Below, piece after piece: positions 11,901 through 30,338 of a stretch of DNA of 64,000 bases. The stretch is from Thiohalospira halophila DSM 15071 (GTDB lineage: Bacteria; Pseudomonadota; Gammaproteobacteria; Thiohalospirales; Thiohalospiraceae). Position numbers and translations under genes: made by a program. The stretch spans positions 148,577 to 212,576 of the forward strand of contig NZ_FOMJ01000001.1 of NCBI RefSeq assembly GCF_900112605.1. Direction: 5' to 3'. How positions within the stretch are numbered: position 1 is the first letter of the stretch; every line of letters begins with the position of its first letter. The notes under the pieces are model-generated. The model made no database searches. It was not told where the DNA came from and worked only from the letters and a program-made list of their open reading frames with translations.

Positions 11901-12509
11901 TCAGGCGCTGTCCGGGCGGACTTCGCCAGTCATGTCGCGGATGATACCGCCGAAGGCGTGGGTGGTATACCGCCACAGTCTTGTCTCCGTCAGGGGATAG
12001 TCCGACGGCAGGCCGGCCTTGCGCCGCAGCTCGGTCAGGAAGGTCCGCGGCTCCGGTAGGCTCTCCCATACCGCCGGCAGGAAGGTGCCCCGATGGCGGG
12101 CCCCTGCCTCCAGGATGAGGCCGTCCACCCCGGGCTGCAGTCGGTTCAGGAGGTCGGCCTCGTCGGTGAAGGGGAAGGGTTCCGGCGCCGTGAGAACCGA
12201 GACCTCCACGTGCAGCCCCGGCAGCTCGGGCGACTGCAGCGGCGGGAAGCGCGGATCGCGGAAGGCGGCCGCCCGGGCGTTGGCGATGACATCCTCGCCC
12301 AGGGGGTGATGGGCCTCCAGGGAGCCGATGCAGCCCCGGAGCTGCCCCTCGCGCTGCAGGGTGACGAAGGCCGCCCCGGGTGCGGTCAGGGCTGGCGGTT
12401 CCGAGGGCGCGGTCGGGAGCGCTTCACCGGCAGTGGCGGCGGCCAGCGTCCGGCCGGCCAGCTCCACCAGGGCCTGGCCGGTGGCGGCGTCGATGGTCTC
12501 TTCAGCCAT
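11901..12509 (-). CDS. amrA: AmmeMemoRadiSam system protein A (AMMECR1 domain)
   Basis: AMMECR1-domain protein of 202 residues. The segment GAAFVTLQREGQLRGCIGSLEAHHPL is the family hallmark, followed by NARAAAFRDPRFPPL and EVSVLTAPEPF. The ATG at 12509 overlaps the upstream gene by 8 bp, and a longer extension into that gene was rejected. In the AmmeMemoRadiSam system it is encoded with a MEMO1-like protein and a radical SAM enzyme. The substrate is not established, although a modification role is assumed. Confidence 0.88.
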   Translation of the reverse strand: MAEETIDAATGQALVELAGRTLAAATAGEALPTAPSEPPALTAPGAAFVTLQREGQLRGCIGSLEAHHPLGEDVIANARAAAFRDPRFPPLQSPELPGLHVEVSVLTAPEPFPFTDEADLLNRLQPGVDGLILEAGARHRGTFLPAVWESLPEPRTFLTELRRKAGLPSDYPLTETRLWRYTTHAFGGIIRDMTGEVRPDSA

Positions 12510-13329
12510 GGGCAGGCTCCGGTTCGTGGAAGGCGAAGGCGCCGTAGCCGACGACCTGGTCGCGCGGTCCAGCGGTGTCGCCGGAGTTGCGCCGGTCCAG
12601 GACCTCGCCGGTGAGGCCGTGGTTCCGGGCACTGGTGAGCAGGCCGCGCACCGGGTGGAAGCCGCAGGCCCCCTCGTGGTCCACCCGCTCCGGGTGGAGG
12701 GTGGCGATGGCCTGCGCCGTGGCCTCGTCGATGCGGTTGGCGGTGGCGTAGTCGTGGAAGTGGGAGAGGTCGGAGCTGATGACGATGAGCGTCTCCGGCC
12801 CGCCCCACAGCCGCTCCAGGACGGCGGCTACCGTGTCGGGGTCGGCATCACCCACCACCAGCGGCACGATCCGGAAGTCCCCCAGAACCTCCTGCAGGAA
12901 GGGGAGCTGGACCTCCAGGCTGTGCTCGGCGGCGTGGGCGGCGTCCAGCATGCCGACATCGGGCAGCTCGGCGATCTCGGCCAGGGCGTCGGTATCCACC
13001 GGGATGTCGCCCAGCGGGGTGCGCAATTGTTCGGCATCCGGCGCCGCCAGGCCGCGGAAGGGGACGCGGTGGGACGGCCCCAGCAGGACCACCCGACGGA
13101 CGGTCTCCTTGAGGGGCGCCACCGTGCGATAGGCGGTGGCGGCTACCGGCCCGGAGTAGGGGAGCCCGGCATGGGGGGCGATGATCGCCTTGGGGGGCTC
13201 GCCGGTGGGCGCTGAAGCCTCGGCCAGGTAGTCCCGGACCATCGAGCGCAGCGCGTCGGCATCGTCGGGGTAGAACATGCCGGCGACGGCCGGTTGCCGG
13301 ATCCGGGGTTCCGTACCCTTGTCCATCAT
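12502..13329 (-). CDS. amrB: AmmeMemoRadiSam system protein B (MEMO1-like)
   Basis: MEMO1-family protein of 275 residues, related to non-haem iron class III dioxygenases. It has RQPAVAGMFYPDDADALR at the N-terminus, IIAPHAGLPYSGPVAATAY, VVLLGPSHRVPFRGLA, EHSLEVQLPFLQ and VISSDLSHFH. The histidines in these motifs are the metal-site positions of the family. ATG 13329 was chosen over an in-frame upstream ATG because the conserved RQPAVAG region starts just after it. It heads the minus-strand group B-A-DUF2237-YciI and is divergent from the radical SAM gene. Confidence 0.9.
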   Translation of the reverse strand: MMDKGTEPRIRQPAVAGMFYPDDADALRSMVRDYLAEASAPTGEPPKAIIAPHAGLPYSGPVAATAYRTVAPLKETVRRVVLLGPSHRVPFRGLAAPDAEQLRTPLGDIPVDTDALAEIAELPDVGMLDAAHAAEHSLEVQLPFLQEVLGDFRIVPLVVGDADPDTVAAVLERLWGGPETLIVISSDLSHFHDYATANRIDEATAQAIATLHPERVDHEGACGFHPVRGLLTSARNHGLTGEVLDRRNSGDTAGPRDQVVGYGAFAFHEPEPAHG

Positions 13330-13349
13330 GGGTTGATCCTCCATATGTT

Positions 13350-13384
13350 CGGTAGCGGCGATCGAAGCGTCGATCGCGATACCG
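13350..13384. promoter_or_regulatory. Dyad in the amrB/amrS divergent intergenic region
   Basis: Between the two divergent starts (13330-13444) lies GCGATCGA-AGCG-TCGATCGC at 13358-13377, a perfect 8-bp inverted repeat. It is flanked by CGGTA (13350-13354) and TACCG (13380-13384), which extend the symmetry. The position suggests an operator serving both directions. The binding protein is unknown, and no clear -35/-10 pair was chosen. Confidence 0.45.
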
Positions 13385-13444
13385 GAAATATGGGATCGCC
13401 GACCGGCCCGGCCAAGGGGATCCCCGGAACCCGAGGAGAAAATC

Positions 13445-14548
13445 ATGACCGACGTGGGACTGGAAGGCGAGGAGACGGTACCGACCAAGTACTGGCATAC
13501 CCTGGACGACGGCCGGGTGCAGTGCGATCTCTGCCCCCGTTTCTGCAAGCTGCACGAGGGCCAGCGCGGGCTGTGCTTCGTGCGCGCCAATCAGGGCGGC
13601 GAGGTGGTGCTGACCACCTACGGCCGCTCCAGCGGCTTCTGCATCGATCCCATCGAGAAGAAGCCGCTCAACCACTTCCTGCCGGGGACCTCGGTGCTCT
13701 CCTTCGGCACCGCTGGCTGCAACCTGGCCTGCAAGTACTGCCAGAACTGGGACATCAGCAAGTCCCGGGAGATCGACACCCTGGCCGATCGCGCCGATCC
13801 GGAGACGGTGGCGCGCACGGCCGAGGCCTACGGCTGCCGCAGTATCGCCTACACGTACAACGACCCCATCATCTTCCACGAGTACGCCATCGACATCGCC
13901 GCCGCCTGCGCCGAGCGGGGGATCAAGTCGGTGGCCGTGACCTCGGGCTATGTCTCGCCCGAGCCGCGGGCGGAGTTCTACCGCTACATGGATGCGGCCA
14001 ACGTGGACCTGAAGTCCTTCTCCGAGGACTTCTACCGCAAGCTAACCGGCGGCCATCTGGAGCCGGTGCTCGACACCCTGCGCTATCTCTACCACGAGAC
14101 CGATGTCTGGCTGGAGCTGACCACCCTGGTCATCCCGGGCCACAACGACAGTGACGAGGAGATCGTGGCGATGTCGAACTGGATCCGGGATGAGCTGGGA
14201 CCGGAGGTGCCCCTGCATCTCACGGCCTTCCACCCCGACTGGAAGATGAGCGATGTCCCGCCAACGCCGCCGGAGACCCTGCGCCATGCCCGGCAGCTTG
14301 CACGGGATGCAGGCCTGCAGTACGTCTACATCGGCAATGTGATCGATGACGAGGGGGGCACCACCTGGTGTCCCGGCTGCGGGGCGGCGCTTATCGGCCG
14401 CCACGGCTACACCATCACCGCCTGGAACCTGGACGAGCACGGCCACTGCGCCCAGTGCGGCACTTCCATCCCCGGCGTCTTCGAGGCCGAGCCGGGCCAC
14501 TGGGGCTCCCGCCGCCAGCCGGTGCGGCTGCAGCGGATGGCCGTCTAG
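13445..14548 (+). CDS. amrS: AmmeMemoRadiSam system radical SAM enzyme
   Basis: Radical SAM protein of 367 residues. The cluster motif C92-x3-C96-x2-C99 (GCNLACKYCQNW) binds a 4Fe-4S cluster and SAM. An N-terminal cysteine group (CDLCPRFCKL) and the C-terminal pairs CPGC and CAQC give extra metal-binding potential. TYNDPIIFHEYAID and HLTAFHPDWKM are family features shared with PflA-like activases. ATG 13445 has AGGAG close upstream. It is transcribed divergently from the B and A genes and ends 6 bp from the convergent yciK. Confidence 0.9.
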   Translation: MTDVGLEGEETVPTKYWHTLDDGRVQCDLCPRFCKLHEGQRGLCFVRANQGGEVVLTTYGRSSGFCIDPIEKKPLNHFLPGTSVLSFGTAGCNLACKYCQNWDISKSREIDTLADRADPETVARTAEAYGCRSIAYTYNDPIIFHEYAIDIAAACAERGIKSVAVTSGYVSPEPRAEFYRYMDAANVDLKSFSEDFYRKLTGGHLEPVLDTLRYLYHETDVWLELTTLVIPGHNDSDEEIVAMSNWIRDELGPEVPLHLTAFHPDWKMSDVPPTPPETLRHARQLARDAGLQYVYIGNVIDDEGGTTWCPGCGAALIGRHGYTITAWNLDEHGHCAQCGTSIPGVFEAEPGHWGSRRQPVRLQRMAV

Positions 14549-14554
14549 CGGGGG

Positions 14555-15298
14555 TCAGTCGCCCTGGGCGCTGAAGGCCTGGCCGGTCTGGCCGCGGCTG
14601 TCGGGGCCCAGGAGGTAGAGGTGGGCCGGGGTGATGTCCGCCGGCTGCAGGAGTTCGGTGGGGTCCTCGCCGGGATAGGCGCGCTGGCGCAGGCCGGTGT
14701 TCACCGGGCCCGGGTCCAGGCTGTTGCAGCGGATCCCCTCGCCCTCCAGCTCCTCGGCGAAGATCTCCATGAGCCGTTCGGTACCGGCCAGGCTGACGGC
14801 GAATGGTCCCCAGTAGGCCTTGCCCTTGCGGGCGACATCGGCGGTGGTGAAGACCACGGAGGGGTCCTCGCTGGCCTGGAGCAGGGGCAGGCAGGCGCGG
14901 GTGAGCAGGTAGGGGGCGTTGAGGTTCACCTGCATCACCTTGGGCCACATCTCCATGCTGTAGAGGTGCAGCGGCGTCAGCGAGCCGAGGTTGGCGGCGT
15001 TGTGGAGCAGGCCATCCAGCCGGCCGAAGGCCTCGTCCACCTTGGTGGCGAGTTCGTCGTAGTCCTTGGCGGCGGCCCCCTCCAGGTTCATGGGGAAGAT
15101 GGCGGGTTGCGGCCCGCCGGCCTGCTCGATCCGGTCGTAGACCTCTTCCAGCTTGCGGATGGTGCGGCCCAGCAGGACCACGGTGGCGCCGTGGGCAGCC
15201 AGGGTCTCTGCGGCGGCGGCGCCGATGCCGTCACCGGCGCCGGTGACCAGGATTACGCGGTCCCGGAGCAGGTCGGGAGCGGCCTGATAGTCGAGCAT
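14555..15298 (-). CDS. yciK: YciK-like short-chain dehydrogenase fold with catalytic Tyr/Lys replaced
   Basis: SDR-fold protein of 247 residues. The cofactor motif TGAGDGIG is intact (about residues 19-26), as is the structural NAA motif (HNAANLGSL). The C-terminal half matches YciK (PADITPAHLYLLGPDSRGQTG). At the active site, where relatives have Y-A-x-S-K, this protein reads F166-A-V-S-L170, and the usual serine region reads TTADV. Both the catalytic tyrosine and lysine are therefore missing while the gene is otherwise intact. A strong AGGAGG precedes the ATG. It is the last gene after hpnD and hpnE, 24 bp downstream of hpnE. Confidence 0.8.
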   Translation of the reverse strand: MLDYQAAPDLLRDRVILVTGAGDGIGAAAAETLAAHGATVVLLGRTIRKLEEVYDRIEQAGGPQPAIFPMNLEGAAAKDYDELATKVDEAFGRLDGLLHNAANLGSLTPLHLYSMEMWPKVMQVNLNAPYLLTRACLPLLQASEDPSVVFTTADVARKGKAYWGPFAVSLAGTERLMEIFAEELEGEGIRCNSLDPGPVNTGLRQRAYPGEDPTELLQPADITPAHLYLLGPDSRGQTGQAFSAQGD

Positions 15299-15322
15299 GG
15301 AAGGGTTCCTCCTGAAATGGGG

Positions 15323-16612
15323 TTAGGCCGGAGCGGCCAGCAGGTTCCGGGCGCATTCTACGCCACTGCGAACCGCCCCTTCGAGGGTAGCCGGCAGACC
15401 GGTACTGGTGTAATCGCCGGCCAGCCACAGACCGGGGGGGCCGGCATCCACGGCGGGGCGGTGATCGTCCACACCCGGAGCCGGATGGAAGGTGGCGCGA
15501 CGCTCACGGATCACCCGGCTCTCCAGCGCCGGCGGCCAGTCCGGGCGCAGGGCGGCCAGGGTAGTGGCGGCCTCCCGCGCGCAGGCGGCCCGGTTTCGCC
15601 CGGAATCGTCGGCGCTGGTCACCACGGCCATCCAGCCCGGCTCACCGGCGGTGCGGCGATCCACGATCCAGGGGCTCGGTGTCTCGGCACTGGCCCACAG
15701 CGGTGGGTCCAGGTGGACGTGGCGCGGGTAGCGCAGATAGACGGTGGTGATGGCGCCGTGGCCGAGGCCGCGTAGCCGGTCGGCCAGCTCGTGGCCCCCG
15801 GGCACGGGCTCCAGCAGCCTGGCGGCGTGCCAGGGCGCGGTGGCCAGGAGGACGGGCCCGGTCCGCCGTTCCCCCCGGGTCGCGATGCCGGTGACGGCCC
15901 CCTCGCTTGTCGTCAGGGCGCGGACGCGCTCGCCGGTGTGGACCTCGCCACCCCGGTCGCGGATGAAGGCGGCCGCCGGCTCCGGGAGGAGGGCGCCCAG
16001 GCCGGTCCGCGGGAACCAGAGCTCGGCGTTCCGGCGGCCTCCGCCGAAGGCGTCGGCGAGGACCCGCAGGAAGAGCCGGGCCGAGGCGTGCTCGGGGCGG
16101 GCATTGAGGGTGGCCAGGCACAGCGGCGTCCAGAGCCGGCGCAGGGCGGTGGCCCCCTGCCGGTGGCGGGCGAGGAGTTCGGCCACGGTCCGGTCCCGGC
16201 GCAGGCGGAAGCCGCGCATCGCCATGGCCGCAGCGAAGGCCAGCGCCCGACGGCGCCCCCCCGGTCCCAGGCCGCGGGCTCCGGCCAGGGCGCCCACGGC
16301 GTGGAGCGGGCCCGGCAGGCGGCTCCCGGTCAGCGCCAGGGCCTCGTCGCCGTCGGCGACATGGAGGGCCAGGGGCTCGCGGTGGAAGGCGGTGTCGATG
16401 TCCACGCCGATCCGTCCGAGGAGCCGTTCCACCCCGGTGTAGGCCCCGATGAGCAGGTGCTGGCCGTTGTCGCGCCCCTCGGCCAGGCTCCGCGCACGGC
16501 CGCCGGGGCGGGGGGCCGCCTCCAGAACAACGGGGGCGCGGCCGGCGGCGGCCAGCTCCACGCCGGCGGCGAGCCCGGCCCAGCCGGCCCCGACGATAAG
16601 CGGTGCGGTCAT
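15323..16612 (-). CDS. hpnE: Hydroxysqualene/squalene-associated FAD-dependent desaturase HpnE
   Basis: FAD-binding oxidoreductase of 429 residues. The dinucleotide motif GAGWAGLAAGVELAAAG lies at the N-terminus (residues 8-24), followed by EAAPRPGGRARS. The C-terminal FAD motif is LWLAGDYTSTGLPATLEGAVRSG. HpnE reduces hydroxysqualene to squalene, the last step of the HpnC-HpnD-HpnE route from farnesyl diphosphate. Its start overlaps the hpnD stop by 4 bp. Squalene is the precursor of hopanoids; no squalene-hopene cyclase lies in this window. Confidence 0.88.
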   Translation of the reverse strand: MTAPLIVGAGWAGLAAGVELAAAGRAPVVLEAAPRPGGRARSLAEGRDNGQHLLIGAYTGVERLLGRIGVDIDTAFHREPLALHVADGDEALALTGSRLPGPLHAVGALAGARGLGPGGRRRALAFAAAMAMRGFRLRRDRTVAELLARHRQGATALRRLWTPLCLATLNARPEHASARLFLRVLADAFGGGRRNAELWFPRTGLGALLPEPAAAFIRDRGGEVHTGERVRALTTSEGAVTGIATRGERRTGPVLLATAPWHAARLLEPVPGGHELADRLRGLGHGAITTVYLRYPRHVHLDPPLWASAETPSPWIVDRRTAGEPGWMAVVTSADDSGRNRAACAREAATTLAALRPDWPPALESRVIRERRATFHPAPGVDDHRPAVDAGPPGLWLAGDYTSTGLPATLEGAVRSGVECARNLLAAPA

Positions 16613-17469
16613 TGCCCCGCCTTGCGCGCCCGCTTCGCCTCCCGCCGGGCCGTGCGCCAGGCCACCCAGAGCTTGCGCCAGGCCGGGAGGCGGTAGCGCC
16701 GGGTCATGGCGTGGTAGCCATCGGCGTCCATGCGGTCGAGGAGCCGTTGGTAGATGGCCGCCATGATGACCCCGCTGCGCTGGGCGTAGCGGTCCTCCTC
16801 GGGCAGCCCCTCCAGGGCGCGGCGGTAGTAGTCCCGGGCGCGGTCGGCCTCGAAGGCGAAGAGTGAACGCATATCCTCGGTCTCCCGCCCCATGAGCAGG
16901 TCCTGGCGGCTGACGCCATGGGCCTCGCGATCCTCGGCGGGGAGGTAGATCCGTCCGCGCTGGGCATCTTCGTGCACGTCCCGGAGGATGTTGGTGAGCT
17001 GGAAGGCCATGCCCAGGTCGTTGGCGTACTGCCGGGTCTGGCGGCTCTGATAGCCGAAGATCTCGGCGGCCATGAGGCCCACCACCGACGCCACGCGATA
17101 GCAGTAGAGGGAGAGGGTCCGGAAATCCGGGTAGTCGTGGATGTCCAGATCCATCTCCATGCCATCGATGACCTCATGGAAATGCTCGCGGGGGAGGTCG
17201 AAGCGCTCCAGCCACGGCGCCAGGGCCTGGGCCACCGGGTGCTGCGGCTGGCCGTCGAAGAGCCGCTCCACCTCCTGGCGCCACCACTCCAGCTTCATCC
17301 GGGCAACGCTGGGCTCACTGCACTCGTCCACGACGTCGTCCACCTCGCGGCAGAAGGCGTACAGCGCGGTGATGGCCCGGCGCCGGTCGGGATCGAGGAA
17401 GAGGAAGCTGTAGTAGAAGGAGGAGCCGCTGGCGGCCGTCTTCTCCTGGCAGTACTCGTCGGGGGTCAT
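16609..17469 (-). CDS. hpnD: Presqualene diphosphate synthase HpnD
   Basis: Trans-isoprenyl diphosphate synthase of 286 residues of the squalene/phytoene synthase family. The first aspartate-rich motif is FCREVDDVVDE (about residues 39-49), the second is NDLGMAFQLTNILRDVHED. The YLPAED motif follows. HpnD joins two farnesyl diphosphates to presqualene diphosphate. ATG 17469 (MTPDEYCQEK) was chosen over an upstream in-frame ATG because the conserved domain starts here and GAGGGATCC precedes it. First gene of the hpnD-hpnE-yciK group. Confidence 0.9.
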   Translation of the reverse strand: MTPDEYCQEKTAASGSSFYYSFLFLDPDRRRAITALYAFCREVDDVVDECSEPSVARMKLEWWRQEVERLFDGQPQHPVAQALAPWLERFDLPREHFHEVIDGMEMDLDIHDYPDFRTLSLYCYRVASVVGLMAAEIFGYQSRQTRQYANDLGMAFQLTNILRDVHEDAQRGRIYLPAEDREAHGVSRQDLLMGRETEDMRSLFAFEADRARDYYRRALEGLPEEDRYAQRSGVIMAAIYQRLLDRMDADGYHAMTRRYRLPAWRKLWVAWRTARREAKRARKAGQ

Positions 17470-17541
17470 GGATCCCTCAACTGGGGGTGGGAGCATGGGA
17501 TTGTGCCGTGTAAACACTTATCATACCAATGAACGAAAAAG

Positions 17542-17573
17542 CGGATTGTCACTTCGCGGTAACCGGATTGTCA
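17542..17573 (+). promoter_or_regulatory. Direct repeat CGGATTGTCA x2 upstream of the gsp operon
   Basis: CGGATTGTCA occurs at 17542-17551 and again at 17564-17573, start to start 22 bp, about two helical turns. It lies 39 bp before gspC, in the 142-bp divergent gap with hpnD. The first copy contains a TTGTCA that could be a -35, but no good -10 follows at 16-18 bp. Such spacing is typical of tandem activator sites. The regulator is unknown. Confidence 0.4.
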
Positions 17574-17611
17574 TAGAGTGCGGAGGCCTTGCGAGGGTCG
17601 GAAGGGGGTTC

Positions 17612-18475
17612 ATGAATCCACCCAATATTCTTGCCGGTGTCGACCCGGCCCGCCTGGTAGCGCTGTCCAGGGCGGTGGCCGAGGCGCTACTGGTGGTGGC
17701 CATCGCAGCGGCCGCGGCGGATATTGCCTGGCGCCTGATGCCCGCTGCCGGTCAAGGGCCGGCCCCGGCTGCCGCACCGCAGGCCGCCAGCGTGAGCGAC
17801 GAACGCGGGCCCGATGTCGCCCGCCACGCCCTCTTCGGGGAACCGGACGAGACGGCCGACGGCGAGGCCGGGATCACCGAGGCACCGGAGACCACCCTGC
17901 AGCTGGTCCTGCGCGGCGTTATCGCCACCGGCGATCCGGCGACCTCCCGGGCCATCATCGCCGGCCGGGAGGGGGAAGAGGGGTACAGCCCCGGTGACAA
18001 CCTCCCGGGCGGCGCGGTACTCGAGCGGGTCTTCGAGAACCGCGTGTTGCTGCGGCGTGACGGGCGTTTCGAGGAACTCCGCATGCCGCGCACCGACCTG
18101 GCCCGGCCGGCGCAGCGGGAGGATGATCTGGTCTCCACCGGCGATATTGAACCCGACCTCTCGGAGTCCGAGGTGCGGGACTTCCGGGACCGGTTGCGCA
18201 ACGACCCCGGCAGCCTGGCGGGGATCTTCCGCGCCAGCCCCGTCCGGGAGAACGGCGAGGTCCGCGGTTATCGCGTGCGTCCCGGCAGCGAGGGGGAGCT
18301 CTTCCGCCGTTTCGGCTTCGAGGCGGGGGACATCATCACCGAGGTCAACGGTACTCCTCTGGACAGCCCGCGGCGCGGGATGGAACTGATGAACCAACTG
18401 GGCGAGGCCGATACGCTGTCCGTAGTAGTGGAGCGGGATGGTCAGCGCCGGCGGATCGAGATGAGACTGCAATGA
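17612..18475 (+). CDS. gspC: Type II secretion protein GspC
   Basis: Inner-membrane protein of 287 residues. A single N-terminal helix (about residues 20-42: ALSRAVAEALLVVAIAAAAA) is followed by a Pro/Ala-rich linker. The homology region has LQLVLRGVIATGDPATSRAII at about 100-120. The C-terminus is a PDZ-like domain (YRVRPGSEGELFRRFGFEAG and DIITEVNGTPLDSPRRG). GspC links the inner-membrane platform to the GspD secretin and contributes to substrate choice. ATG 17612 has GAAGGGGG upstream. First gene of a complete gspC-N operon. Confidence 0.9.
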   Translation: MNPPNILAGVDPARLVALSRAVAEALLVVAIAAAAADIAWRLMPAAGQGPAPAAAPQAASVSDERGPDVARHALFGEPDETADGEAGITEAPETTLQLVLRGVIATGDPATSRAIIAGREGEEGYSPGDNLPGGAVLERVFENRVLLRRDGRFEELRMPRTDLARPAQREDDLVSTGDIEPDLSESEVRDFRDRLRNDPGSLAGIFRASPVRENGEVRGYRVRPGSEGELFRRFGFEAGDIITEVNGTPLDSPRRGMELMNQLGEADTLSVVVERDGQRRRIEMRLQ

Positions 18476-18485
18476 GGAGCACGGG

Positions 18486-20573
18486 ATGAGTCAGTCGAGG
18501 GGAAGGATTCGCCGGAGCCTGCTGGGGCTGGCCCTGTGGACGCTCCTCCCCGGCGGGGCCGCGGCGGAGCCGGTGACCCTGAATTTCCAGGAAGCCGATC
18601 TGCGGGCGGTGGTGGAAACCGTCTCCGAGGCGACAGGCAGGAACTTCGTCGTGGACCCCCGGGTGAAGGGGCAGGTGACCCTGGTCTCCTCTCAGCCACT
18701 GGAGGGGGAAGCGGTCTACGAGGCCTTCCTCTCCGTCCTCGACGTCCACGGCTTCACCGCCGTCCCCGACGGCGACACCACCCAGATCGTCCCCGCCTCC
18801 CGGGCCAAGCAGGGGGCCATCCCCACGAACGGCGCGGGGGCCGGGGGCGAATTCGTCACCCGGGTGGTCACCGTGGAACACGTCCCGGCTGCCCAGCTGG
18901 TGCCCATCCTGCGCCCCCTGGTGGCCCAGGAGGGTCACATGGCCGCCTACCAGCCCACCAATACCCTTATTCTCTCCGACCGCGCCCGCAATGCGGACCG
19001 TCTCGTCGGCATCGTGGACAGCCTGGATCGCCCGGATCAGGGCCGCTCCAAGGTCATCGAACTGGAGCAGGCGGCGGCCGAGGAGGTCGTCCGCATCGTG
19101 GAGCAGATGGAGCAGGCCGGCCAGGAGAATGACCAGGGCGCGCGCATCGTGGCGGACTCCCGCACCAACAGCGTCATTCTCCGCGGCGACCCGGCGGATC
19201 GCATGCGGATGGAGGCGCTGGTCCACCATCTGGATACGCCGGTCTCCACCGACGAGGGCAACACCCACGTCATCTACCTGCGCTATGCCCGGGCGGAGGA
19301 GATCATCAAGGTCCTTCAGGGGCTGCCCGAGGGCGAGACCGGTGATGACAATGAGGGCGAGGCCCGCGTTCGAAGCCCCTTTTCCGGCGTGCGGATGCAG
19401 GCCGACGAGGGGACGAACGCCCTGGTCATCACCGCGCCGCCGAACCGCATGCGTGCCATCCGCTCGGTGATCAACCGGCTGGACATCCGCCGCGCCCAGG
19501 TCATGGTGGAGGCCATCATCGCCGAGGTCTCCGCCGATACCAGCCGGGAGTTCGGGATCCAGTGGCTGGTGGACGGGACCAACGGCGGCGGCGTCAGCCC
19601 TGCCGGGGCGGTGAACTTCTCCACCGGCAACAGCGGCATCGTCCCCCTGGCCTCCAGCATCGCCCAGGGCGGGGGTGCCAACCTCGGTGACGGCATGTCC
19701 GCCGCCTTCGGGCAGATCGGGGCAGCGGAAACGGACTTCGCCGGCCTGGTTCGGGCGCTCTCCTCGGACAGCAACGTCAACGTCCTCTCCACGCCCAGCC
19801 TCGTCACCCTGGACAACGAGGAGGCGGAGATCGTGGTGGGGCAGAATCAGCCCTTCGTGACGGGCCAGTACACCAGCACCGGTAGCGGTAGCACGCCGAA
19901 CAACCCCTTCCAGACCATCCAGCGCGAGGATGTCGGTCTGACCCTGAAGGTCTCGCCGCAGATCAACGAGGGCAGTGCCGTGCGCCTGGCCATCGAGCAG
20001 GAGGTCTCCAGTGTGCTGGAGAACACCGACACCGGGCCGGTGACCAACAAGCGCGAGATCAAGACCAACGTCATCGTCGACGATGGTCGGATCCTGGTGC
20101 TCGGCGGCCTCATCGACGAGGAGGAGCAGGTCAACGAGCAGCGCGTGCCGCTGCTCGGCGACATCCCGGTCCTCGGCTGGCTGTTTCGCTACAACAAGAC
20201 CAGTACCGTCAAGCGCAACCTCATGATCTTCCTGCGGCCCACCATCCTCCGGGACGGCCAGGATGCCCAGCGGGTCTCCAGCGCCAAGTACTCGGCCCTG
20301 CGCCAGCGCCAGCTGGACACGCGGGACAGCCTCCGCCGCCTGGGAGACAGCGATGCCAGCCCGGTGATGGAGGACCTGGATGAGTTCCTGGAGCTGCCCG
20401 CGCCCTATCCGGGGAACCGCCCCGGCGATGACGGGAACGGGGCGGACGAGGTGTCGACGGAGGAGGTCCCTCGTTCGACCGGGGAGCCCCGAGCCCGCAA
20501 TCCCGACATCGATCCGGCGCCGGTCGCGCCGCCGCCGTCCGCTGCCCGGAGCGCCGGGAGGTTGCCGCGGTGA
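18486..20573 (+). CDS. gspD: Type II secretion outer-membrane secretin GspD
   Basis: Secretin of 695 residues with an N-terminal signal peptide ending near GGAAA/EP. The N0 domain starts at [19 protein letters not shown]; the N1-N3 repeats follow ([58 protein letters not shown]). The secretin domain ends with [17 protein letters not shown] and MIFLRPTIL. The C-terminal 100 residues are an acidic/Pro-rich tail and may contain the pilotin-binding S domain. The protein forms the multimeric outer-membrane channel. Ends in a GTGA overlap with gspE. Confidence 0.93.
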
Positions 20574-28797: not shown

Positions 28798-29058
28798 CTA
28801 TCGGTAGTGGAAGCGGCAGGAGAGAACCCGCAGGATATCTTCGCCGACCTCGTATACCAGGCGGTGTTCAAGGTTGATACGTCGGGACCAGCAGCCGGAT
28901 AGCTCGAATTTCAGGGCCTCGGGACGGCCTCGTCCCTGAAAGGGATCACGGGCTGCTTCCTCGATCAGGCCCAGGATCTTGGTGGCAGTGCGGCGGTCCT
29001 TCTGGAGCCACCACTGCAGGTCTTCCAGTGCAGCCGGGTCCAGGAGGACCTGCCTCAT
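28798..29058 (-). CDS. yoeB: YoeB-family toxin (RelE superfamily)
   Basis: Toxin of 86 residues of the Txe/YoeB family. It has ALEDLQWWLQKDRRTATKIL, RDPFQGRGRPEALKFEL, SGCWSRRINLEHRLVYEV and the C-terminal RVLSCRFHYR with the catalytic-type His-Tyr. YoeB cleaves mRNA in the ribosomal A site. The start overlaps the stop of the antitoxin gene by 4 bp, the usual antitoxin-first order. Confidence 0.92.
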   Translation of the reverse strand: MRQVLLDPAALEDLQWWLQKDRRTATKILGLIEEAARDPFQGRGRPEALKFELSGCWSRRINLEHRLVYEVGEDILRVLSCRFHYR

Positions 29059-29318
29059 TGGGTCAGCTTTTCTCGAGCTTCTTCCAGCGAGAGCGCATCA
29101 TCCTCGCCCCGAGCACGAGCCTGGAGCAGGCGTTCTGCATTCGCCGGATTCCCGAGCAGGTAGAGAGTCTCCTGCAGGCCATTGAAGTCTTCCTCGGCCA
29201 TGATGACCGCGGCGCTTCCGCCCCGGCGTTCGATTCGCACCGGGGCATGGTCGGTTTCGACTCTGTCGAGGAGTTCCTTCAGGCGGTTGCGCGCCTCGGT
29301 ATAGCTAATGGTATCCAT
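29055..29318 (-). CDS. yefM: YefM/Phd-family antitoxin
   Basis: Antitoxin of 87 residues. The Phd/YefM N-terminal DNA-binding fold is seen in ISYTEARNRLKELLDRVETD and ERRGGSAAVIMAEEDFNGLQETLYLL; the acidic C-terminal tail would wrap YoeB. ATG 29318 was chosen because MDTISYTEAR is the usual YefM start. It is expected to repress its own promoter; two overlapping dyads lie just upstream. Confidence 0.92.
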   Translation of the reverse strand: MDTISYTEARNRLKELLDRVETDHAPVRIERRGGSAAVIMAEEDFNGLQETLYLLGNPANAERLLQARARGEDDALSLEEAREKLTQ

Positions 29319-29325
29319 GGCTTCT

Positions 29326-29350
29326 TGTCTCAGTGACAGGTTTCCTGTCA
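29326..29350. promoter_or_regulatory. Overlapping dyads upstream of yefM-yoeB (candidate operator)
   Basis: TGACAGG-TTT-CCTGTCA at 29334-29350 is a perfect 7-bp inverted repeat. TGTC-N5-GACA at 29326-29338 overlaps it. The pair starts 8 bp upstream of the yefM start codon, where YefM-type operators lie. The half-site TGACA/TGTCA differs from the E. coli TGTACA core. Confidence 0.55.
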
Positions 29351-29427
29351 GGTTAGGGCGCAGGCAACTCGACGTCAATCCGGACCCCTTGAAGGCGCGT
29401 TGGGCGTTGCCGTGATTCGAGCGCCGG

Positions 29428-30279
29428 TCAGCGGGGCCGCAGGGCGCGCCAGAAGACCCAGGCCTTGTCCCGGAGTCGCAGCCGGGGACGGCTGAAGAGG
29501 TCGTCCTTCTGATCATGCAGGCGGCCCAGGGTCCGCACGCCGCCGTAGAGGATGAGTCGCGCCTCGAAGCCGGCCCGGCCGGGCAGGCGCTTGCCCAGCT
29601 GGGCCCCGCCCCGGAGCAGCCGCCGGGCGCGCTCGATCTGCTCCCGCAACAGGCCACGCATGGCCGGGTCGCTTATTCCCTCGCGCAGGTGGCGCTCGGT
29701 GACGCCGTGGCGCTCCATATCGGCGGCCGGCAGGTAGATCCGGTCGCTCTCGTCGATGTCCTGGCGGATATCCTGGAGGAAGTTCACCAGCTGCAGTCCG
29801 CTGCACAGGGCGTCGGAGTGGGCGATGGTCCGCTCGTCCTCCACACCGTAGAGCGCCAGTAACAGCCGCCCCACCGGATTGGCCGAGCGCCGGCAGTAGT
29901 CCATGACCTCGCCGAAGTCGGCGTAGCGGCTCTTGGTCACGTCCTGGCGAAAGGCGGAGAGCAGGTCGCGGAAGGGCTGGACCGGGAGCCGGTAGCGCGG
30001 GATGGCATCGGCCAGCGCCACCTGGACCGGGTCCTCCGGGTCCGGGGTGCCGGCCACCGCCGCTTCCAGACGCCGCTCCCGCTCGTCCAGCGCGGCCAGG
30101 CGCTCCTCGGCGGCCATCTCCCCCTCGTCGGCCAGGTCGTCCGCCTCCCGGGCGAAGGCGTAGATGGCGGCCACCGGATCCCGCAGCCGCCGGGGCAGGG
30201 CCAGGCTCGCCACGGGGAAGTTCTCGTAGTGCCGCCGTGCTCGTCGGCGGCATTCGCGGTAGGCGGTGCGCGGGTTCAA
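29428..30279 (-). CDS. hpnC: Hydroxysqualene synthase HpnC
   Basis: Squalene/phytoene synthase-family protein of 283 residues. It has HYENFPVASLALPRRLR, the first aspartate motif AFAREADDLADEGE and the second motif LVNFLQDIRQDIDESDRIYLP. HpnC converts presqualene diphosphate to hydroxysqualene. TTG 30279 is preferred as start: GGAGG lies 7 bp upstream and the product begins NPRTAYRECRRRARRHYENF. ATG 30306 is the alternative. It is separated from hpnD-hpnE by the whole gsp operon. Confidence 0.87.
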   Translation of the reverse strand: MNPRTAYRECRRRARRHYENFPVASLALPRRLRDPVAAIYAFAREADDLADEGEMAAEERLAALDERERRLEAAVAGTPDPEDPVQVALADAIPRYRLPVQPFRDLLSAFRQDVTKSRYADFGEVMDYCRRSANPVGRLLLALYGVEDERTIAHSDALCSGLQLVNFLQDIRQDIDESDRIYLPAADMERHGVTERHLREGISDPAMRGLLREQIERARRLLRGGAQLGKRLPGRAGFEARLILYGGVRTLGRLHDQKDDLFSRPRLRLRDKAWVFWRALRPR

Positions 30280-30338
30280 GCTCGTTCCTCCGTTGCCGGG
30301 GGCCATTGTACCAGTCCCCGAAGCGGGATCCGGCGACT

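Follow-up and report, generated by a model that had tools for sequence, protein, structure and literature searches.

The yciK gene of Thiohalospira halophila DSM 15071 stands directly behind two squalene genes and codes for a protein of the SDR fold in which the catalytic serine, tyrosine and lysine are all replaced. This raises the question whether the substitutions reflect an error, the decay of the gene, or a function that does without the classical SDR reaction. The window is the whole analysed stretch of 64,000 nucleotides, and all coordinates are given in it. The gene and its immediate upstream neighbours are:

14555..15298, (-) strand: yciK, a 247-aa SDR-fold protein without catalytic Ser, Tyr and Lys (NF006509, AlphaFold2, Foldseek)

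15299..15314, (-) strand: ribosome-binding site region, CAGGAGG with a 9-base spacer, in the upstream sequence of yciK

15323..16612, (-) strand: hpnE, hydroxysqualene dehydroxylase (TIGR03467, 372.5 bits, cut-off 283.05)

16609..17517, (-) strand: hpnD, presqualene diphosphate synthase (TIGR03465, 380.9 bits, cut-off 278.6)

The open reading frame matched the NCBIfam YciK profile NF006509 with 317.6 bits (cut-off 269) over profile positions 1-245 of 248. It starts with ATG, CAGGAGG lies 9 bases upstream, and its GC3 of 0.93 is like that of hpnE (0.89) and hpnD (0.90), in agreement with the first-pass annotation, which had described a clean gene with a strong ribosome-binding site. The AlphaFold2 model, based on 44 aligned sequences, predicted an intact fold (mean pLDDT 96.6, pTM 0.93). 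The best Foldseek entry was chain A of 3i1j, an SDR from P. syringae (TM 0.97, rmsd 1.0, 56% identity), and the 17 best rows were SDRs of P. syringae, E. coli, Shigella and Salmonella with 43-56% identity, several of them titled yciK, while at row 18 the identity fell to 33%. On the tree described below the protein was nested among other YciKs, which places it inside the family. A profile search of this genome, which is 99.99% complete and 0.09% contaminated, showed no second YciK. The Rfam search gave no match at gathering scores, and in a plasmid search with window positions 12000-18500, which gave 25 records, the five listed rows matched only the AmmeMemoRadiSam stretch; this trio of AmmeMemoRadiSam A, AmmeMemoRadiSam B and a radical SAM protein (TIGR04335, TIGR04336, TIGR04337) occupies window positions 11901-14548, beside the squalene operon. 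The window gene is a genuine YciK ortholog, real and retained.

Three short segments of the protein define its putative active site and cofactor site:

14789..14803, (-) strand: F166-A-V-S-L170, degenerate Y-x-x-x-K site, with codons TTC (F166) and CTG (L170)

14834..14848, (-) strand: T151-T-A153-D154-V155, with A153 at the Ser position by column comparison with YciK rows

15221..15244, (-) strand: TGAGDGIG cofactor glycine motif, residues 19-26, intact

In full, the active-site segment is F150-T-T-A153-D154-V-A-R-K-G-K-A-Y-W-G-P-F166-A-V-S-L170. We take the classical SDR spacing to put the serine 13 residues before the tyrosine, and in the S-Y-K relatives of the window protein, which keep all three residues, the serine is indeed found at this distance. 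Because of this spacing the Ser position corresponds to A153, and D154 is the next residue. The codons and the alignment confirm the assignment of F166 and L170 to the Y-x-x-x-K pair made in the first-pass annotation; its serine region TTADV was right in that Ser is replaced, and is here narrowed to A153, while its description of the cofactor motif and the rest of the fold as intact agrees with the unchanged motif and with the confidence of the predicted model. The TGxxxGxG motif is present, as is N125, which we take to be the Asn of the SDR catalytic tetrad, while Ser, Tyr and Lys are absent. The three substitutions (Ser to A153, Tyr to F166, Lys to L170) are in frame and require a minimum of four base changes, spread over three sites. 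Judged from these residues, the window YciK cannot carry out the classical Ser-Tyr-Lys reaction. Cofactor binding may be impaired as well, since the lysine of SDRs normally also holds the nicotinamide ribose.

The same pattern emerged from comparison with solved structures. The window YciK resembles the entries titled yciK (3f1k and 3f1l from E. coli, 3iah from Salmonella) in full-length homology, fold, cofactor motif and N125, and close SDRs without this title are 3i1j from P. syringae and 3gy0 from Shigella; however, 3i1j, 3f5q and 3f1k, when aligned residue by residue, keep Ser, Tyr and Lys where the window protein has A, F and L. Similarly, it has the Rossmann fold, TGxxxGxG and the catalytic Asn in common with classical SDR reductases such as FabG, but retains none of the three residues that were present in 30 of 30 FabG proteins of relatives, a control made of the best-scoring matches and thus leaning towards canonical proteins.

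Ten relatives from the same family have a YciK, of which eight keep Y and K and two have Y with N in place of K. Genus g3 had S-Y-K in 8 of 8 proteins and genus g2 had S-Y-N in both genomes with YciK, while a third g2 genome, 73% complete, shows neither a YciK nor a squalene synthase family gene. The F/L pair occurred in none of the ten, nor in any other of the 227 YciK-like proteins surveyed below. The window's genus was represented by one genome, and the search of the order gave the same 12 genomes as that of the family; a contig-database scan (best 80 of 575 loci) contained nothing nearer to the window YciK than 65%. The nearest protein on the tree was L017, an A-Y-H protein from a single-contig genome, followed by the S-Y-K proteins L013 and L046; given the weak branch support of 63, a Lys loss common to the window protein and L017 is no more than possible. 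The F/L pair itself is a feature of the window's lineage and is so far unique.

To place this case in the wider family, the relatives were combined with a class-wide sample (NF006509 search of 274 genomes) and 80 contig-database loci, the best 80 of 575 chosen by similarity to the window's family, into a set of 227 distinct YciK-like sequences. The class-wide search comprises the matches listed, with places G167, G210, G200, G169, G122 and G267 left out. At the stage of 176 loci, L008 and L173, which did not match the YciK profile at E 1e-20, were excluded, as were L001-L006, which scored at most 108 bits against at least 282 bits for the remaining loci. Among the 274 genomes of the class sample, the best match exceeded the curated cut-off in 81; at E 1e-30 there was a match in 201, some of these being other SDRs, and none in 73.

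The survey showed that the catalytic residues of YciK vary widely. The Lys column held K in 203 sequences and was replaced in 24 (N5 L3 C3 G3 Q3 Y3 H2 M2; here called K-less), the Tyr column held Y in 215 and F in 12, and the Ser column held D in 97, S in 92, A in 15, H in 12, T, Q and C in 3 each, and E in 2. The complete S-Y-K site was present in 86 of 227 proteins; D-Y-K, with 90 proteins, was the most frequent site type of the set, and Asp at the Ser column outnumbered Ser. The 75 contig-database rows are mostly S-Y-K (53) with 2 K-less, and the other 152 rows include 22 K-less and 33 S-Y-K. Tyr and Lys were both lost only in the window protein and in L092 (S-F-G). All 24 K-less rows retain N125, and 22 of them retain Tyr. 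Column 154 was acidic (D/E) in 17 of the 24 K-less rows, compared with 2 of 86 S-Y-K rows and 33 of 203 K-bearing rows. These raw counts are strong, and an acid at this position as compensation for the loss of Lys is suggestive, but the enrichment is inseparable from shared descent, because the tree holds only three supported independent pairs. Ten proteins (L036, L100, L101, L107, L136, L114, L123, L147, L139 and L141) combine Phe at the Tyr position with a retained Lys, carry His, Gln or Asp in place of Ser and have a loop 3 residues shorter; this type is a possible alternative active site. In the two D-Y-M proteins L083 and L086 the glycine motif is altered too (SGAETDIG, SGADTDIG), and cofactor binding may have been lost as well.

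The number of Lys losses was examined on a tree of 184 rows, from which the active-site columns 150-172 were removed; 43 of the 227 rows were left off, being shorter than 200 aa or being Tyr- and Lys-bearing rows more than 80% identical to a kept row. On the best tree the K/not-K state changed at least nine times, with nine clades made wholly of K-less rows, and the Tyr state likewise changed at least nine times. Branch support was mostly weak, and the well-supported branches carried just three independent pairs with a K change. A single origin of the K-less rows was rejected (p-AU 0.012) on a 54-row subset consisting of all 24 K-less and the 30 nearest K-bearing rows, in which the K change count was 13; this test used a simpler model and a group named before the tree was made, and the subset contains long branches. 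A binomial calculation on 15 K-less lineages split by hand was set aside, the tree showing nine clades. We read the changes as losses rather than gains because Lys is the SDR norm, as parsimony counts cannot tell the direction. The tree analysis thus supports the view that Lys was lost more than once, while an exact number is unsupported.

The question whether the window gene is decaying can be judged from the rest of its sequence. Among 55 columns conserved at more than 85% in the 227 proteins, the window YciK departs at three, A165P, Y166F and K170L. The median YciK also departs at three, and some K-less proteins at up to 15. In a weighted draw of three departures from the 54 columns so conserved when the window protein is left out of the count, the probability that both Tyr and Lys were included was about 0.0025, a post hoc value in that the site had been singled out beforehand. 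The terminal branch of the window protein (0.40) was close to the median (0.43), and K-less rows were not clearly longer in root-to-tip distance (median 1.15 vs 1.10). The K-less state was common to two or three related genomes in seven groups. The dN/dS ratios of K-less sister pairs were 0.219, 0.107, 0.068, 0.099, 0.175, 0.285 and 0.320, with an eighth pair (L121/L132) saturated, compared with 0.062-0.177 for nine K-bearing pairs, dS being near saturation in several pairs. These ratios suggest purifying selection on the K-less pairs, perhaps slightly weaker than on the K-bearing ones. Lys was lost with little other damage in the window protein, L015, L017, L058 and L062, while some of the K-less proteins that depart at many conserved columns may be decaying. 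Neither an error nor overall decay of the gene accounts for the window YciK; it is an extreme member of a family in which the catalytic residues are often altered.

The first-pass annotation had also pointed to the position next to the squalene genes, and this gene order is real: yciK follows hpnE after a 24-base gap, and hpnE overlaps hpnD by 4 bases. A probable further gene of this pathway lies outside the hpnD-hpnE-yciK operon, on the same strand as yciK:

29428..30306, (-) strand: squalene/phytoene synthase family gene, probably hpnC, a name that is inferred (PF00494 match G000:C1:178049-178813)

The end of the ORF at 29055-29657, just past the probable hpnC, appears by eye to resemble a Phd/YefM-type antitoxin. 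Squalene-hopene cyclase (PF13249) was not found in the window's genome, while it was present in 4 of 56 genomes searched; since there was no cyclase match and two synthase genes and hpnE are present, squalene itself may be the end product. Squalene is reported as a membrane lipid in Thioalkalivibrio versutus ALJ 15 (PMC4158274), while T. nitratis ALJ2 is reported to contain it at less than 1% of its lipids (PMC8092127).

In 74 of 75 YciK loci a squalene synthase family gene preceded yciK on its strand, as did an hpnE-like gene in 55 of the 55 where it was found. Besides the squalene synthase family gene and the amine-oxidase/hpnE-like gene, the recurrent neighbours of yciK were rmuC, a methyltransferase and a HAD hydrolase; the last two are presumably ubiG and mupP, judged by Pfam domains and known gene order. 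Genes like ubiG and mupP occurred together with squalene genes in one flank in 11 of 227 rows, four of them with rmuC; flank lengths vary between loci, which makes linkage counts lower bounds. The full string of ubiG-like, mupP-like, rmuC and squalene genes followed by yciK was seen in L169 and L175, the string without squalene genes in L176, L224, L245, L153 and L154, and the window's genome has a ubiG-like gene elsewhere (C1:758676). K-less and K-bearing YciKs were found in the same kinds of gene position.

These neighbours could mean that, where yciK stands in a squalene operon, its product is devoted to squalene synthesis, a new role that would have freed the classical site. Among the 87 rows whose flanks carry squalene synthase- or hpnE-like genes only 7 keep S-Y-K, compared with 79 of the 140 others, so that the site was non-canonical in 80 of 87 and 61 of 140, respectively (p 1.6e-14 over 227 rows, ignoring the tree). 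In addition, none of the 8 genomes of the S-Y-K genus in the window's family has a squalene synthase family gene, whereas the window's genome and two of the three genomes of the K-less genus g2 have one. However, the association vanishes on the tree, where the trait differs in about 0.4 on average across 11 supported pairs; loss of Lys taken alone is not significant (13/87 vs 11/140, p 0.12); 7 of 24 K-less YciKs stand beside ubiG/mupP-like genes with no squalene genes in the flank; and D-Y-K, a site that still has Tyr and Lys, accounts for 52 of the 87 squalene-linked rows. Such a dedicated role is thus very unlikely, and the idea that linkage to squalene genes caused the loss of the active site was rejected: the raw counts are strong, but the functional tie fails the phylogenetic test.

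The reading that we favour, with a probability of about 0.5, is that the window YciK, which lacks the classical relay, serves as an accessory or scaffold protein that binds NADP(H). It has lost the SDR proton-relay site (Ser, Tyr, Lys) while otherwise remaining constrained like its relatives, and the selected function of YciK would be independent of classical carbonyl/alcohol redox chemistry. SDRs are usually oligomeric, and the window YciK would act as an oligomer on a co-made partner, for which HpnE and HpnD from the same operon are candidates, although we know of no partner of YciK. Because Lys was lost more than once, and in several cases with little other damage, a role independent of the classical reaction is probable. 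On the other hand, the retention of Tyr in most K-less rows is odd if the chemistry is simply gone, and the absence of the F/L pair from every relative examined, together with the Y and K kept by eight of ten same-family relatives, speaks against an accessory role. A model for the proposed role is MAT2B, an SDR-fold, NADP-binding accessory subunit of methionine adenosyltransferase, which, unlike the window YciK, keeps YxxxK (PMC3793261).

Alternatively, the protein could still be an enzyme, which would pass hydride from NADPH to a flavin or quinoid acceptor, such as the FAD of HpnE, without a Tyr/Lys relay and with D154 or water as the proton source if one is needed. The retained cofactor motif and N125, and the acidic residue enriched at column 154 of K-less rows, are consistent with such a reaction; however, this enrichment has the limit of descent noted above, and to our knowledge no substrate of any YciK is known. 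HpnE is described as FAD-dependent (PMC8092127), and an SDR-fold, NADP-binding reductase without the catalytic Tyr does exist in eugenol synthase, but this enzyme, unlike the window YciK, keeps Lys and needs it, its K132A and K132Q variants being completely inactive (PMC1991597). YciK itself is called uncharacterised in PMC11841063. Hydride transfer is a somewhat unlikely explanation, though second in likelihood to the accessory role. Relaxed selection, with YciK becoming unnecessary in the window's lineage and the active site the first part to go, is less likely still. It could explain the dN/dS ratios of K-less pairs somewhat above controls, the K-less relatives that depart at many conserved columns and the 73 of 274 class genomes without a match at E 1e-30. 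The E. coli yciK, which is described as sharing an operon with btuR whereas the window gene stands behind hpnD-hpnE, also gave no growth advantage when overexpressed in one cobamide assay (PMC11841063). Nevertheless, the changes of the window protein at conserved columns are all at the active site, its ribosome-binding site, GC3, reading frame and branch length are those of an ordinary gene, and in each of seven groups the related genomes have the K-less state in common. A sequencing or assembly error is effectively refuted: the exact substitution is present in one genome only, but the base changes at three sites cause no frameshift, the genome is nearly complete and hardly contaminated, and equivalent Lys losses occur in other assemblies.

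The first-pass annotation had suggested a conserved non-catalytic role. The part of this claim that concerns a role without the classical SDR reaction is supported by the replacement of Lys in 24 of 227 proteins with more than one origin, by the ordinary branch and the purifying selection on K-less pairs, and by the constraint on the window protein everywhere except at the active site; the F/L pair as a mark of a conserved subfamily is not, as none of the same-family YciKs carries it. Most of the close homologues do keep Y and K, yet the single-strain mutation or base-calling error that the annotation would have read from this does not follow, because Lys loss recurs. Among the literature matches listed, in which subscription journals are thinly covered, none had the loss of the YciK active site as its subject. 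It is tentatively suggested that the main function of the whole YciK family does without the classical SDR reaction, so that the Ser/Tyr/Lys relay was repeatedly discarded, often with an acid beside the Ser position; the family would then form a natural series of non-classical or pseudo-SDRs with one conserved role near ubiG-, mupP- and hpnDE-like genes.

YciK is widespread in Gammaproteobacteria, has several solved structures and is called uncharacterised in PMC11841063. If its catalytic residues are dispensable, its annotation as an oxidoreductase would be misleading and activity screens would fail. The window YciK is a useful pointer that the chemistry of this family should be questioned, and its naturally occurring K-less variants make it possible to ask directly whether chemistry matters.
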